From the NCBI GenBank assembly GCA_022616275.1, contig JAKEFB010000262.1, positions 1 to 44,435 of the forward strand: 44,435 nucleotides of DNA, written 5' to 3'. The notes below the pieces were generated by a model. That model was not told the origin of the DNA, searched no databases, and worked only from the letters and a program-made list of their open reading frames with translations. Made by a program: the position numbers and the translations under genes. Below are positions 13,007-20,722 of the stretch, piece by piece. The stretch is from Chloroflexota bacterium (GTDB taxonomy: Bacteria > Chloroflexota > Anaerolineae > Promineifilales > Promineifilaceae). Each line of letters begins with the position of its first letter. Position 1 is the first letter of the stretch.

Positions 13007-14386
13007 ATGGCATCACAACTCACGCCCCGTGCAGTGCCTGACGCCGGGCAAGCTGCCTGGTGGCATATTTTGTTTCCGGCAGGTCTTTACTTGCTTTTGG
13101 CTTCACTCTATTTTTTTGCCATCCCGATTGGGGAATCGCCAGACGAACCGGGGCATCTGGTATGCATTGAGCAGGTGGCACAATACAGCCGTCTACCGGT
13201 GATGGAACCCAAGCAGGAGGGGGATGTGTGGTGGGCACACGGCCGTATTATAGCCGGACACATGTGTTACCACATGCCGCTTTATTATCTGGTTGCAGGG
13301 TACGCGCTGAAGGGGGTGGCGATGGTAACAGACACGGCCGTGACGTACACCTTCCCGCCGACTAGTGAATATTTTATGTCTCAAAACGCCATGTTCAGGC
13401 ACGAGCCATATGCTTTTGGACAGACACCGGAGCCGATAACATTGTCCAGTTTGCGGCTTCTCTCAGTCACATTGGGGTTCTCGCTGGTTTGGGGAAGTTA
13501 TGTCCTGACACGGCGGTTAGCGCCGGAGTATCCCTTGTTTGCAGTTCTGGCGGCGGTGTTGGCGGCGGGCTGGCCGCAACTTGCCTACCTCAGCCGGGCG
13601 ATTACCAACGATGCCCTGGCCACGGCGCTGGCGGTGTTGATTTTGGTGATGCTGGCAAACGTGGCCCGGCCGTACCGGTTCATGTTCCTGGCGATACTGT
13701 CTTCATTGGCCGCCCTGAGCAAAATCTCAGTAGCTTTTGTGATTGGGGCCATTCTCATTGTGTGGCTGATTGAGTTTGTGCAATTTCAGAATGAGAAACG
13801 GGCTTACCTGAAAGCGCTTTTGATGAGTAGTGCCATCTGGCTATTCACTTTTTTGTTCCTCACCCATCATTCTTTGTTAAGCAAACACCTGACTATAAGT
13901 ATCGGGGCATTTTCGGCTGCCTCTCCACGCGCGGCGACGCTGGCGTATTGGCAAGAAGTTTTCATGCTCACGCTCAGTTCAGGGTGGGCCAGGCTGGGGT
14001 GGATGAATTTGCCGGCCCCCCTCTGGCACGCCTATGCCTGGTGGGGCGTATTATCCCTGGCCGTGGTGGCCGGTTTTACCCTGTGCTGGCGTCTGGCAAA
14101 GTCAAGGCAGCAGCGCACCCTGCTGCTTATTTGTCTGGTGTGGATAGCCATCGCCCTACTTTCTTATCTGCGCATTAACTTCAACCGGTTACAGCCACAA
14201 TTTCGCTTTATACTGGCGGTTGTACCGGTTCTCACGGCGGGCACGGCCGTGGGCTGTTTGTACGGGGTGCGGCAACGGCCGTTTCTCCAATGGGGAATCA
14301 TCGCTGGTGTGGCTGCTTTTTTGGTTGGGTATAACGTTTGGTTTATTTTCACGGCCGTGCAAGAAACTTATGGCTGGTATCTATAA
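13007..14386 (+). CDS. Multi-pass membrane protein, DUF2142/GT-C-like
   Basis: Integral membrane protein of 459 aa with roughly ten hydrophobic helices. The first loop carries IGESPDEPGHL, the SPDE-H motif of DUF2142 and related GT-C glycosyltransferase-like proteins, where the acidic pair lies at the membrane face and binds lipid-linked sugar. A polyprenyl-phosphate-sugar-dependent glycosyltransferase role is a family-level inference. Only 2 nt separates it from the crotonase gene. Its GC and GGCCGG density are lower than its neighbours, which may reflect membrane composition or transfer. Confidence 0.65.
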   Translation: MASQLTPRAVPDAGQAAWWHILFPAGLYLLLASLYFFAIPIGESPDEPGHLVCIEQVAQYSRLPVMEPKQEGDVWWAHGRIIAGHMCYHMPLYYLVAGYALKGVAMVTDTAVTYTFPPTSEYFMSQNAMFRHEPYAFGQTPEPITLSSLRLLSVTLGFSLVWGSYVLTRRLAPEYPLFAVLAAVLAAGWPQLAYLSRAITNDALATALAVLILVMLANVARPYRFMFLAILSSLAALSKISVAFVIGAILIVWLIEFVQFQNEKRAYLKALLMSSAIWLFTFLFLTHHSLLSKHLTISIGAFSAASPRAATLAYWQEVFMLTLSSGWARLGWMNLPAPLWHAYAWWGVLSLAVVAGFTLCWRLAKSRQQRTLLLICLVWIAIALLSYLRINFNRLQPQFRFILAVVPVLTAGTAVGCLYGVRQRPFLQWGIIAGVAAFLVGYNVWFIFTAVQETYGWYL

Positions 14387-14414
14387 CCAGGGCGCCAAGC
14401 TGTCGCCATGAACT

Positions 14415-14486
14415 TCCCGGAGGTCGGCGATAAATATCACGACGATATCCATCGCTTGAACCTCTGGAAGGTTGAACCTCCGGGAG
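14415..14486. repeat. Inverted repeat downstream of the membrane protein gene
   Basis: TCCCGGAGGT (14415-14424) pairs with ACCTCCGGGA (14476-14485). A smaller palindrome AACCTCTGGAAGGTT lies between them. It is a possible terminator for the preceding gene or a dispersed palindrome family; no T-run. Confidence 0.4.
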
Positions 14487-14489
14487 ATA

Positions 14490-14519
14490 TTGACAACGGC
14501 CGACCACTTGTGCTAAAGT
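14490..14519 (+). promoter_or_regulatory. Strong promoter of the leader-ORF/tRNA-Ile unit
   Basis: Perfect TTGACA (14490-14495), 18-nt spacer, TAAAGT (14514-14519) with a TG extension (TG-C). The predicted start is about 14526, followed by a leader with AGGAGG. Confidence 0.6.
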
Positions 14520-14552
14520 TTGCAACATGTAACCTGGTCAGGAGGATTGAAG

Positions 14553-14660
14553 TTGATAGGCGAGGACAGCAAGATAAAACTGAATGACCAGCGCCCCACT
14601 CTTGAATCGTTACTGACAAGATTTGGCGCTTTTGGTTTGCAGCCCGGCGAGGGGCGGTAG
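14553..14660 (+). CDS. 35-codon ORF, candidate attenuator leader peptide with AUA codons
   Basis: A short ORF starting with TTG, preceded by a perfect Shine-Dalgarno AGGAGG (14540-14545) at 7-nt spacing and driven by the promoter just upstream. The product begins MIGEDSKIKLNDQRP and ends GLQPGEGR. Both isoleucines (codons 2 and 8, 14556-14558 and 14574-14576) are ATA, the codon read by the tRNA-Ile(UAU) encoded 120 nt further down. The last codons contain GCCCGGCG (14642-14649), which can pair with the left arm of the first terminator. Interpretation as a regulatory leader peptide is inference; no homologue is recognised. Confidence 0.5.
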   Translation: MIGEDSKIKLNDQRPTLESLLTRFGAFGLQPGEGR

Positions 14661-14691
14661 ACGTTTCGTATCGTTTCCTTTGATCATCAGG

Positions 14692-14722
14692 CGCGGGCTG
14701 CAAGGCCCGCGTTTTTGTTTGT
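14692..14722 (+). terminator. Intrinsic terminator 1 upstream of tRNA-Ile
   Basis: Perfect 7-bp stem CGCGGGC (14692-14698)/GCCCGCG (14705-14711), 6-nt loop, then TTTTTGTTTGTT. It ends the transcript of the small ORF unless prevented. Confidence 0.75.
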
Positions 14723-14746
14723 TGACACACATCCAAAACAACAAGG

Positions 14747-14775
14747 CGCGGGCTGTAATGCTCGCGTTTTTTGTT
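14747..14775 (+). terminator. Intrinsic terminator 2, near copy of terminator 1
   Basis: CGCGGGC (14747-14753) pairs with GCTCGCG (14760-14766) including one G-U, loop 6 nt, followed by TTTTTTGTT. The left arm is identical to that of terminator 1, 55 nt upstream. It stops 5 nt before the tRNA, leaving no room for a separate tRNA promoter. Confidence 0.7.
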
Positions 14776-14779
14776 GGTC

Positions 14780-14852
14780 GGGCCGCTAGCTCAACGGTGA
14801 GAGCAGGCGTCTTATAAGCGCCAGGTTCCAGGTTCAATTCCTGGGCGGCCTA
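14780..14852 (+). tRNA. tRNA-Ile(UAU)
   Basis: A complete 73-nt cloverleaf: acceptor GGGCCGC/GCGGCCT (pair 1-72 is G-U), D arm GCTC/GAGC with an 8-nt loop containing GG, anticodon stem GGCGT/GCGCC with loop CTTATAA, and T arm CCAGG/CCTGG with loop TTCAATT. Anticodon TAT reads AUA. CCA is not encoded. Most bacteria read AUA with a lysidine-modified CAU tRNA; a UAU isoacceptor is uncommon. It lies directly behind two terminators and 20 nt before an HNH endonuclease gene. Confidence 0.9.
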
Positions 14853-14872
14853 TTTGTTGTTGGATTAAGAAG

Positions 14873-15397
14873 ATGGTTGATGTATTGTTGCTGAACGCAA
14901 GCTATGAGCCTCTGGCTGTGATCCCCTGGCGGCGCGCGCTGTCCTTGCTGGCGCGCGGCCGGGTAGACGCAGCCACCACCGATTCGGTCACCATCCACAG
15001 CGTGTCTCAGGCAATGCGGGTTCCCACCGTGTTGCGGCTGCGCCACTACGTCAATGTGCCCCGGCGCGGGGCAGGTTGGAGCCGCCAGGGCGTTTTCCAG
15101 CGCGACCGCTACCACTGCATTTACTGTGGCATCCAGCCTAGCGAGTGGCGGAGCGGCCGCCAGTTGACCCGGCGCGACTTCACCATTGATCACATCATTC
15201 CCCGTAGCCGGGGCGGCCGGAACACCTGGGGCAACACCGCCTGCGCCTGCTTTGCCTGTAACCACCGCAAAGGGGATCGGACGCCGCACGAGGCCGGTAT
15301 GGTCATGCGCTGGGAACCCAAGATCCCGCGCGTAGATTACCTGGTGGCTTATGGTGAGATTCCCGACTCCTGGAAGGTATACCTGGAGCTAGGCTAA
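14873..15397 (+). CDS. HNH endonuclease family protein
   Basis: A 174-aa HNH nuclease-like protein. The N-terminal NASYEPLAVIPWRRALSLL is typical of a widespread stand-alone HNH family. The nuclease core has Zn-binding CIYC (82, 85) and CFAC (126, 129), DH at 106-107 in TIDHIIPRSRGG, Asn121, and NHRKGDRTP. Family members are common in Chloroflexota, actinobacteria and cyanobacteria without assigned roles. It begins 20 nt after the tRNA with AAGAAG as ribosome-binding site, so it may be cotranscribed with it. Its stop codon is part of the hairpin below. Confidence 0.85.
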   Translation: MVDVLLLNASYEPLAVIPWRRALSLLARGRVDAATTDSVTIHSVSQAMRVPTVLRLRHYVNVPRRGAGWSRQGVFQRDRYHCIYCGIQPSEWRSGRQLTRRDFTIDHIIPRSRGGRNTWGNTACACFACNHRKGDRTPHEAGMVMRWEPKIPRVDYLVAYGEIPDSWKVYLELG

Positions 15398-18801: not shown

Positions 18802-20698
18802 CGGCCGAATCATCAAAAGCGGCCAAAAAACGAAAGATTTCGCACCTTACCAACTGAATCCAACCCGGTTATCCTCACCGCTATTTGCCTCAACAAGAAG
18901 AAAAAGGAGGAAGATGAGCGGCGAGGAAGTGCAGGTTCGTCATACGCAACATGCGCTGTTGGTTGCCTGGGGACGGTTCGCCCAAGCGATGGGCTTGAGC
19001 CAGGCGATTGCGCAGGTGGGTATTAAGCAAAAGAAGCATCAGCACAGCCCACAGAGTAAAGTCCTTGAGTTCCTGGTCGCCACGTTGGCTGGAGTGAAGT
19101 ACCTACAAGACATCAGTCTGGCCGCCCACCCGCTGGACAAAGACCAGGTAGTGGCCGAAGCGTGGGGCCAGCCTGGCTGGGCAGACTACAGCGGCGTCAG
19201 CCGGACATTGAGCGGTCTGAGTTGGGCCGAAGCAGAGCAGCTAGTTCAGGTCTTGGAGAAGGTTAGCCAACCGTACTTGGATAGAGAAGTGGCGGTCATC
19301 CGCTCGCGGGGTGAACGATTCCAACTGGATGGTGACTTGACGGGGATAGCCGTCTCTAGCACCAGCCACAGTTACCCCAACGCGGCCTTCGGCCATATGG
19401 ATGACAGCATTTGTTTGGGCTATCAAGCCGTCGTCGTTAGCCTAAAGAGTCCCACCTATGGCCGGTTCTGGTTATCAGGTGACCATCGTCCTGGCGACAC
19501 GGTGGCTTGTACCCAGACCGAAAGCATCGTTTGCGCCGCAGAAAGGCGGCTGGGCTTGCGACCACGACGCCGGACTGAACTGCTTCAGCAGCGGTTACAA
19601 CGCTTTGACGAACAATTGGCGACTATCCACCAGCGTCTTGCGGCACAACCAGCAGCGGTCAGTGAAAGGCAAAGCCAAGTAGCCGCCTTGTGTCAGCAGG
19701 AGAACGACCGTCAGTCCGAACTGTGCGCCCTGGAGCAAGCGTACCAGCTTCAACAACGGCTGGAGCGGCCCACCAGTCGTTTGAGCAAAGCTCGCCAGCG
19801 TTTGGCCGCCACGCAAGCGCAACGCCGTCGCGCTGAGAAGGCCGTTGAGGTTGTCCAAACGCGGTTAGCTAAAACACAAGCCCGGCTGGCCCAAGGACAG
19901 AACGAACGGACCGCCTTGCAGGAACGACTGCGCCAACTGGAGCAGGACAAGGCCACCAATCCGCATCCGATTGAAGCAGAATTCCGCCTGGACGCCGGCT
20001 TCGGCACCTACGACAACATCACCCTGCTCATCGAGTTGGGCTATGAAGTCTACACCAAGCCCTTCAGCCATCAGGTGGTTCGCTATCTCCGCCATCAAGT
20101 GACGGAGCAGACCCTCTGGACCCGTGTCGGCGCCAATGCTGAAATGGTCGCTTGGCCGAACATGAAGTTCAAAGGCTGCCCCTACCCGGTGGATGTCGCT
20201 CTGGAACGCTTCTACACTGGCAAGCGCCTCAAGCACAGCGCCTGACTGCATTATGGTTTTGACCCGGTGTCCGAAAACCTGCCGGCCTGGTTCGACCACT
20301 ACAACGGCCGCCAAACTATCGAGGCCGGTATCAAAGAGGGCAAACAGGTCTTTTACCTCCACCGACTCAAGGTCCGTTCCGAACCGGCCATTTATCTTCA
20401 GCAGGCCATGGTGCTTTTTGCTGCTAATTTCATCCGCCTGGCTACCTGCTGGCTGGCTCCTCATGCCCTGCCCCTGGAGAATGCCCTCGATGTCACCAAA
20501 TTGGGTGTCAAGAGACAGGTTCACGTCGCCGCCCACGTCTCAGCCGAGGTTGTCCGAGATTCAGTTAGTTGGTTGTTAACGTTCAGTGAGTGCAGTGCCT
20601 TTGCTGGCAAAGTGCTCGCTTTACCCAGCGGTGATTCTCCACCGCCTTTACAAAACCTGAAAAATGATGTTTTTGTGCCGTTTTTGATGAAATCGCAT

Positions 20699-20718
20699 CT
20701 GATTGCACAACCGTTAGG
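20699..20718 (-). repeat. IS right terminal inverted repeat
   Basis: Read on the minus strand: CCTAACGGTTGTGCAATCAG. It also encodes the last residues of the transposase. Confidence 0.8.
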
Positions 20719-20722
20719 TTAG
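20719..20722. repeat. IS target-site duplication, right copy
   Basis: TTAG; it completes the GGT codon and supplies the TAG stop of the transposase frame. Confidence 0.75.

Follow-up and report, generated by a model that had tools for sequence, protein, structure and literature searches.

The window, by which we mean the whole stretch of DNA that was analysed (44,435 nt, contig JAKEFB010000262.1), belongs to the genome of a Chloroflexota bacterium of the family Promineifilaceae (8.5 Mb, 98.25% complete and 5.5% contaminated). A 486-nt stretch separates an ORF of 459 aa that ends at 14386, for which no Pfam match is found, from an HNH endonuclease gene that starts at 14873, and it contains, in this order, a dispersed repeat, a promoter (P1), a Shine-Dalgarno sequence, a leader ORF with a TTG start, two terminators (T1 and T2) and a tRNA-Ile(UAU) gene. 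The features from P1 to the HNH gene are all on the + strand, and the parts listed in a first-pass annotation (promoter, AGGAGG, a TTG ORF of 35 codons, two terminators that share a left arm, and the tRNA) are all present. The repeat (14411-14486) lies directly 5' of P1 and has 41 further matches in the genome at E values up to 10, six of them with E of 1e-3 or below; its dispersal ties the contig to the rest of the genome. The locus is known from this one genome only, an assembly of 309 contigs.

P1 (14490-14519) is a sigma-70-like promoter in which TTGACA (14490-14495) and TAAAGT (14514-14519) are separated by an 18-nt spacer, with an extended -10 TG. A promoter scan yields one match in 4 kb against a shuffle mean of 1.2, which is not significant when taken alone; most of the other tRNAs that were examined in the genome have a promoter of the same type. 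The Shine-Dalgarno sequence AGGAGG (14540-14545) is located 7 nt 5' of the TTG at 14553, which opens the 35-codon leader ORF (14553-14660, stop codon TAG at 14658-14660). The in-frame codon log-odds of this ORF is 0.035 per codon, and 2.7% of shuffles score as high; real 35-codon chunks have a reference value of 0.138 (sd 0.140) and out-of-frame chunks a value of -0.263 (sd 0.127), and one reverse frame of the ORF scores 0.12. In 397 genomes of the class, the leader peptide has three matches outside the window's genome, with E values of 0.03-0.1, and none of them is convincing. The two isoleucine codons, at positions 2 and 8 of the 35 with five codons between them, are both AUA (ATA in the DNA) and show no clustering. 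The earlier statement that both are AUA is borne out; this codon, which was expected to be rare, makes up 16 of the 181 isoleucine codons of the 11 window ORFs taken as genes. By hand estimate, two AUA out of two would arise with a probability of approximately 0.008 under genic usage and approximately 0.1 for a leader without third-base bias.

T1 (14689-14714) consists of 11 bp, seven of them G-C, with a loop of 4 nt and a fold energy of -19.3 kcal/mol (14685-14720), and T2 (14743-14770) consists of 11 bp, six of them G-C, with a loop of 6 nt and a fold energy of -21.0 kcal/mol (14735-14779). Both share the left arm GGCGCGGGCTG, and the two look like a duplication. Near the end of the leader ORF, the sequence TTGCAGCCCG (14637-14646), referred to below as the antiterminator arm, is the exact complement of CGGGCTGCAA (14694-14703). 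The resulting helix of 10 bp takes up most of the T1 left arm together with the loop, and in silico this helix and T1 are mutually exclusive. A pairing of 8 nt with one bulge had previously been pointed out between the ORF end and the T1 left arm; the pairing exists, although its extent was understated, as it forms part of the exact 10-bp helix. Shuffling the leader produces an exact complement of 10 nt to the left arm and loop of T1 once in 2000 dinucleotide shuffles and never in 2000 mononucleotide shuffles, and 1 of 538 window segments contains one. When the duplex is judged by energy, the corresponding counts are 3 of 2000, 8 of 2000 and 35 of 538, so that in GC-rich DNA a duplex of this energy is no rarity by itself.

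The tRNA-Ile(UAU) gene (14780-14852) is called by ARAGORN, matches Rfam RF00005 with 66.2 bits and has an intact cloverleaf with the anticodon UAU; it begins 4-7 nt past the tail of T2, a distance that varies with the T taken as the end of the tail. Residues A73, A37 and A38 and the pairs C4-G69 and C29-G41 appear to agree with the isoleucine identity elements. The HNH gene (14873-15397; Pfam HNH_5, 1.3e-13, and HNH, 2.5e-12) follows 20 nt 3' of the tRNA, and a terminator scan finds no terminator-like site in this gap; the two are probably co-transcribed. Relatives of the HNH protein are found in 110 phage records, all with less than 60% identity (39% in the best row). Farther downstream, two successive + strand ORFs of 443 and 151 aa (18914-20722) give the impression of one transposase in two frames.

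Several origins and classes were considered and rejected. No viral contig carries the exact tRNA pattern or the terminator pattern, which speaks against a phage origin; 70 phage records match the query, and the best 5 of the 70 cover the tRNA part only, four of these being annotated as tRNA-Met or tRNA-Lys and one as a hypothetical protein. For a plasmid origin, no plasmid match was found. A T-box or another known leader was sought with Rfam over 14380-14900, and among the 13 matches with E up to 5 only the tRNA reaches its gathering score; the best sub-threshold matches are mir-7 (E 0.0093, an implausible family), L20_leader (0.41) and Leu_leader (2.6).

A tRNA with the anticodon UAU runs the risk of reading AUG. 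A modified cytidine is described as decoding AUA without misreading AUG, in the manner of lysidine (PMC11938285). TilS is encoded in the window's genome (one match above the cut-off, on contig 250) and 57 of 60 genomes have it at E 0.001; the window's genome has at least three CAU tRNAs. Judged by likeness to the E. coli tRNAs, three of these are presumably a tRNA-Ile2 (locus L055), the initiator (L057) and the elongator (L039). With TilS and the CAU tRNAs, the usual AUA decoder is likely present, and provided that the tRNA-Ile2 is what it appears to be, AUA decoding should not depend on tRNA-Ile(UAU), which is probably an extra that is redundant for AUA. This bears on the self-correcting loop put forward in the first-pass annotation, in which a shortage of AUA decoding would stall the ribosome at AUA-2 or AUA-8, the antiterminator would form, and more tRNA-Ile(UAU) would be made. 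The identity of both leader isoleucine codons and the rarity of AUA are in keeping with such a loop, but a sensor of its own scarcity built on AUA stalling would be blunt if the tRNA is redundant.

The other tRNAs of the genome provide a yardstick for the arrangement upstream of tRNA-Ile(UAU). The loci of the best 30 of 44 tRNA matches were examined, giving 34 distinct tRNAs, and promoters were scored as matches out of 12 with an addition of 0.5 for an extended -10. Tandem terminators are present upstream of 1 of the 34, namely tRNA-Ile(UAU), where two strong ones occupy -91..-65 and -37..-9; tRNA-Cys has one upstream terminator at -36..-13, within a tRNA array, and the Thr(ggt), Thr(cgt) and Asp tRNAs have single weaker terminators farther upstream. 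Within 130 nt, a promoter score of at least 9 is reached by 19 of the 24 other cluster-leading tRNAs, 15 of these 19 having the -35 element between -37 and -48; scores below 9 belong to the Trp, His, Ala(ggc), Gln(ttg) and Arg(cct) tRNAs, and four of the 24 remain below 8.5. The tRNA promoters of this genome are near the E. coli sigma-70 consensus, and their -10 element often ends approximately 8-19 nt before the tRNA (loci L031-L060). ARAGORN additionally predicts a selenocysteine tRNA in this genome (L037, 1844-1940), beside a Phe-Gly-Cys array.

For tRNA-Ile(UAU), the best promoter score within 130 nt is 8.0, which 16.5% of shuffles reach, whereas P1 scores 10.5 at -290, the top score and the only good promoter within 400 nt by the consensus scan. 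An independent tRNA promoter had been named among the findings that would refute the proposed attenuator; a good one is not seen within 130 nt, but a weak one, TCCAAA-16-TGTAAT, with 8 of 12 matches, lies inside T2 (TGTAAT at 14754-14759). If it were used, transcripts would start within T2 and escape both terminators, and the leader would be irrelevant. This candidate is poorer than most other tRNA promoters and has a G at the second -10 position, and we consider its use unlikely. Unless that poor promoter is used, the lack of a good promoter near the tRNA implies that its transcripts probably cross both T1 and T2, and a leader with two terminators and no obvious promoter of the tRNA's own suggests that the output of tRNA-Ile(UAU) is probably throttled. 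Expression by read-through from an upstream promoter would be shared with the tRNA-Trp of the same genome, which is preceded by an ORF that we take to be a ribosomal L33 gene; unlike tRNA-Ile(UAU), tRNA-Trp has no terminator found in the preceding 160 nt.

Comparison with relatives raises a different explanation. Among 53 genomes of the family, the tRNA-Ile(UAU) pattern corresponds to a real tRNA in the window's genome alone (locus L064 also matched the pattern and was left out, as ARAGORN calls no tRNA there); the patterns were exact, so that tRNAs of another shape would be missed. The leader part of the query has no match in 59 other genomes. Ten loci that match the HNH gene, nine from the same family and one from the same order, have no tRNA within approximately 3 kb on either strand; L012-L014, which match part of the HNH gene, hold Val, His and Asn tRNAs, and none is Ile(UAU). 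These results are consistent with incidental neighbours: P1, the leader ORF and T1, with T2 as a duplicated back-up, would form a small independent gene or sRNA, next to which the tRNA and the HNH gene came to lie by chance rearrangement, without regulation, living on basal read-through or on a weak promoter of their own. The duplication-like relation of T1 and T2, the leader ORF without convincing relatives and the four other cluster-leading tRNAs with scores below 8.5 fit this explanation equally. However, it leaves an improbable antiterminator match (1 in 2000) to chance, at a site that would be contacted by a ribosome on the stop codon, and no second promoter of quality is seen. We regard incidental neighbours as a serious alternative that is, on balance, somewhat improbable.

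Additional tRNA-Ile(UAU) genes were collected, again with exact patterns, from 397 genomes of the class and 400 of the phylum, two overlapping sets that yield 26 further loci with a tRNA-Ile(UAU) called by ARAGORN. These loci are not independent, several being from one family; L094 (contig edge, no UAU tRNA) was excluded, and L086 and L087 were not counted apart from L080 and L078, whose contigs are equal to theirs in length. None of the 26 has a terminator within 160 nt upstream (for L105, only approximately 105 nt are available), and in none do the 300 nt upstream contain an ORF that is led by a Shine-Dalgarno sequence and includes an AUA. The loop as first proposed would have the ORF accompany this tRNA in related loci, and the 26 without it argue against the loop; they are distant, with the nearest from the same order (L077, inside a tRNA array), six from the same class and the others from the same phylum, so that they include no true orthologue of the locus in the window. 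A promoter close to the consensus (10.5 at -38) precedes the tRNA of L104, and the two tRNAs closest in sequence (84% and 82%) have no recognised promoter within 130 nt and lie near the 3' side of ORFs that look protein-coding. Of 12 genomes searched in another family of the phylum, 8 carry a tRNA-Ile(UAU) gene that encodes the CCA and is almost constant in sequence (L091-L098, L110), in contrast with the window's family.

The effect of a translating ribosome on T1 was predicted by folding. Sequestration was measured as the pairing of the T1 left arm in a transcript cut just before the right arm, and the E. coli trp, thr and his leaders served as controls. The predicted sequestration is 0.86 without translation, 0.87 at AUA-2 and AUA-8, and 0.87 at each of nine other codons tested (5 to 25), and it decreases to 0.33-0.49 with the stop codon in the A site. 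The value for the trp control is 0.71 with the ribosome on the Trp codons and 0.01-0.17 with it at stop, and the thr control drops from 1.0 to 0-0.06 at stop; the his control shows no clear drop, with 0.76-0.77 at His 8-12 and 0.58-0.76 at stop. In the untranslated state, the window's value of 0.86 compares with 0.07 for trp, 0.60 for thr and 0.25 for his. A stall at AUA thus adds nothing over non-translation, because 0.87 and 0.86 are nearly the same and other codons give the same value, and the proposal that AUA stalling specifically frees the antiterminator is not supported, although the arm is indeed left free there. At a regulatory codon, the stall state should differ from both the untranslated and the fully translated state; this is not seen at the AUAs, with the exception of AUA-8 under Andronescu parameters at 25 C, nor is it seen in the his control. 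When pairing upstream of the ribosome is also allowed (Turner, 37 C), the sequestration is 0.70 at stop versus 0.85-0.87 at the AUAs, with 0.77 at codon 14 and 0.71 at codon 26.

The complete terminator gives a mixed picture. With pairing on both sides, the Turner parameters favour complete T1 in each of the ten states and at each of three temperatures (at least 0.76), and at 37 C both AUAs reach 0.99-1.0. The Andronescu set at 25 C puts complete T1 at 0.06 for AUA-8, whereas codon 14, AUA-2, the untranslated state and stop have 0.16, 0.51, 0.69 and 1.0, respectively, and this one condition is in favour of the AUA loop; at 37 C, the five values, in the same order, are 0.81, 0.68, 0.81, 0.95 and 0.99. 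With downstream RNA only, the equilibrium fraction of T1 is 0.81 untranslated, 0.82 at AUA-2, 0.64-0.89 at AUA-8 (Turner parameters), 0.01-0.12 at codons 11-20 and 0.94 at stop, and a separate equilibrium prediction gives 0.99 at AUA-2, 0.69 at AUA-8 and 0.01-0.04 at codons 14-20. Equilibrium folding of this type has no power to recognise an attenuator, because the E. coli trp, thr and his terminators are at or above 0.96 in every state tested. A strict combined criterion, chosen after the window's values were known and including one equilibrium value (codon 14), is satisfied by 0 of 300 leader shuffles and 0 of 110 window segments, and a looser criterion is satisfied by 28% of shuffles, with 6.7% equalling or exceeding the observed pair of values. 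In sum, the ribosome-state predictions lend moderate support to a switch that would sense complete translation of the leader ORF, and hardly any to AUA sensing.

T2 behaves differently from T1 in these predictions. The sequestration of its left arm is 0.88-1.0 in every ribosome state, with no contrast by this measure. When the antiterminator is forced, a relay between the T1 right arm and the T2 left arm is predicted to be complete (1.0) once the transcript reaches the T2 loop, but at full length T2 beats the relay, at 0.78-0.999 for three starts. Forcing T1 gives T2 a value of 0.997-0.999 with two of the three starts and of 0.017 with the third (14607). Since T2 wins at full length, antitermination at T1 alone would not suffice. 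A two-step reading would have a leader ORF with the cognate codon attenuate its own tRNA gene: with the left arm of T1 held by the antiterminator, the right arm of T1 would be free to take the identical T2 left arm, and both terminators would be disabled together. The relay is an automatic consequence of the duplication and is therefore not independent evidence, and we believe this two-step reading to be most improbable. The AUA loop meets the same difficulty, as one arm cannot hold T1 and T2 together and the relay loses to T2 at full length. Taken with the unclustered AUAs, the equal sequestration in the untranslated state and at nine other codons, and the predicted AUA decoding supply, the loop is possible but has little in its favour, and we judge it very unlikely. 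The earlier interpretation as a whole is partly supported.

The reading that we prefer, and to which we assign about an even chance, is a throttled operon of the tRNA and the HNH gene, preceded by a leader that may respond to translation in general; the likelihoods given here to the rival readings overlap one another. P1 would start a leader RNA near 14526 that carries the short translated ORF. Most transcripts would stop at T1 or T2, and a read-through minority would yield tRNA-Ile(UAU) and the HNH mRNA. A ribosome at the ORF end would cover part of the antiterminator arm, and T1 could form; if the ORF were untranslated, or the ribosome halted early at any codon, the arm could capture the T1 left arm ahead of the synthesis of the right arm. 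For a tRNA whose role in reading AUA is probably redundant, a low dose would be fitting. Against the throttled operon, the cryptic promoter within T2 would bypass the leader and the terminators, the looser folding criterion is common among shuffles, T1 is favoured at full length under Turner parameters, T2 shows no contrast between ribosome states, and no relative of the leader was found.

In terms of known systems, the locus resembles the E. coli trp, thr and his attenuators in its promoter, its short Shine-Dalgarno-led ORF, its antiterminator arm at the ORF end and its intrinsic terminator, and it resembles trp and thr in that the predicted left-arm sequestration drops when the ribosome reaches the stop codon. 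It differs from these attenuators in having no clustered regulatory codons, in the high sequestration of its untranslated state, in its two terminators, in a target that consists of a tRNA and an HNH gene, and in a leader for which no relative was found. T-box leaders link tRNA supply to the choice of a terminator, as the leader in the window would also do; unlike them, it has an ORF and no Rfam T-box match, either at the gathering score or with E up to 5. Among the matches listed in the titles and opening abstracts of open-licence papers, no single tRNA gene under leader-peptide attenuation appears. A bacterial tRNA-Ile(UAU) is reportedly found in Mycoplasma mobile; the anticodon is the same, whereas the genome studied here has TilS and no fewer than three CAU tRNAs. 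Were the dose of a redundant and potentially misreading tRNA set by translation of the leader, the locus would illustrate a way for bacteria to retain an additional tRNA-Ile(UAU) alongside the lysidine system. In E. coli, the spacer tRNAs of the rRNA operons are described as being transcribed from an internal promoter, and in the part of that paper considered here the term "leader peptide" is used only for ilvL (PMC5179076). Although the means would differ, the locus and the E. coli spacer tRNAs, as described in that part, are alike in that the output of the tRNA is separated from the surrounding transcript (PMC5179076).
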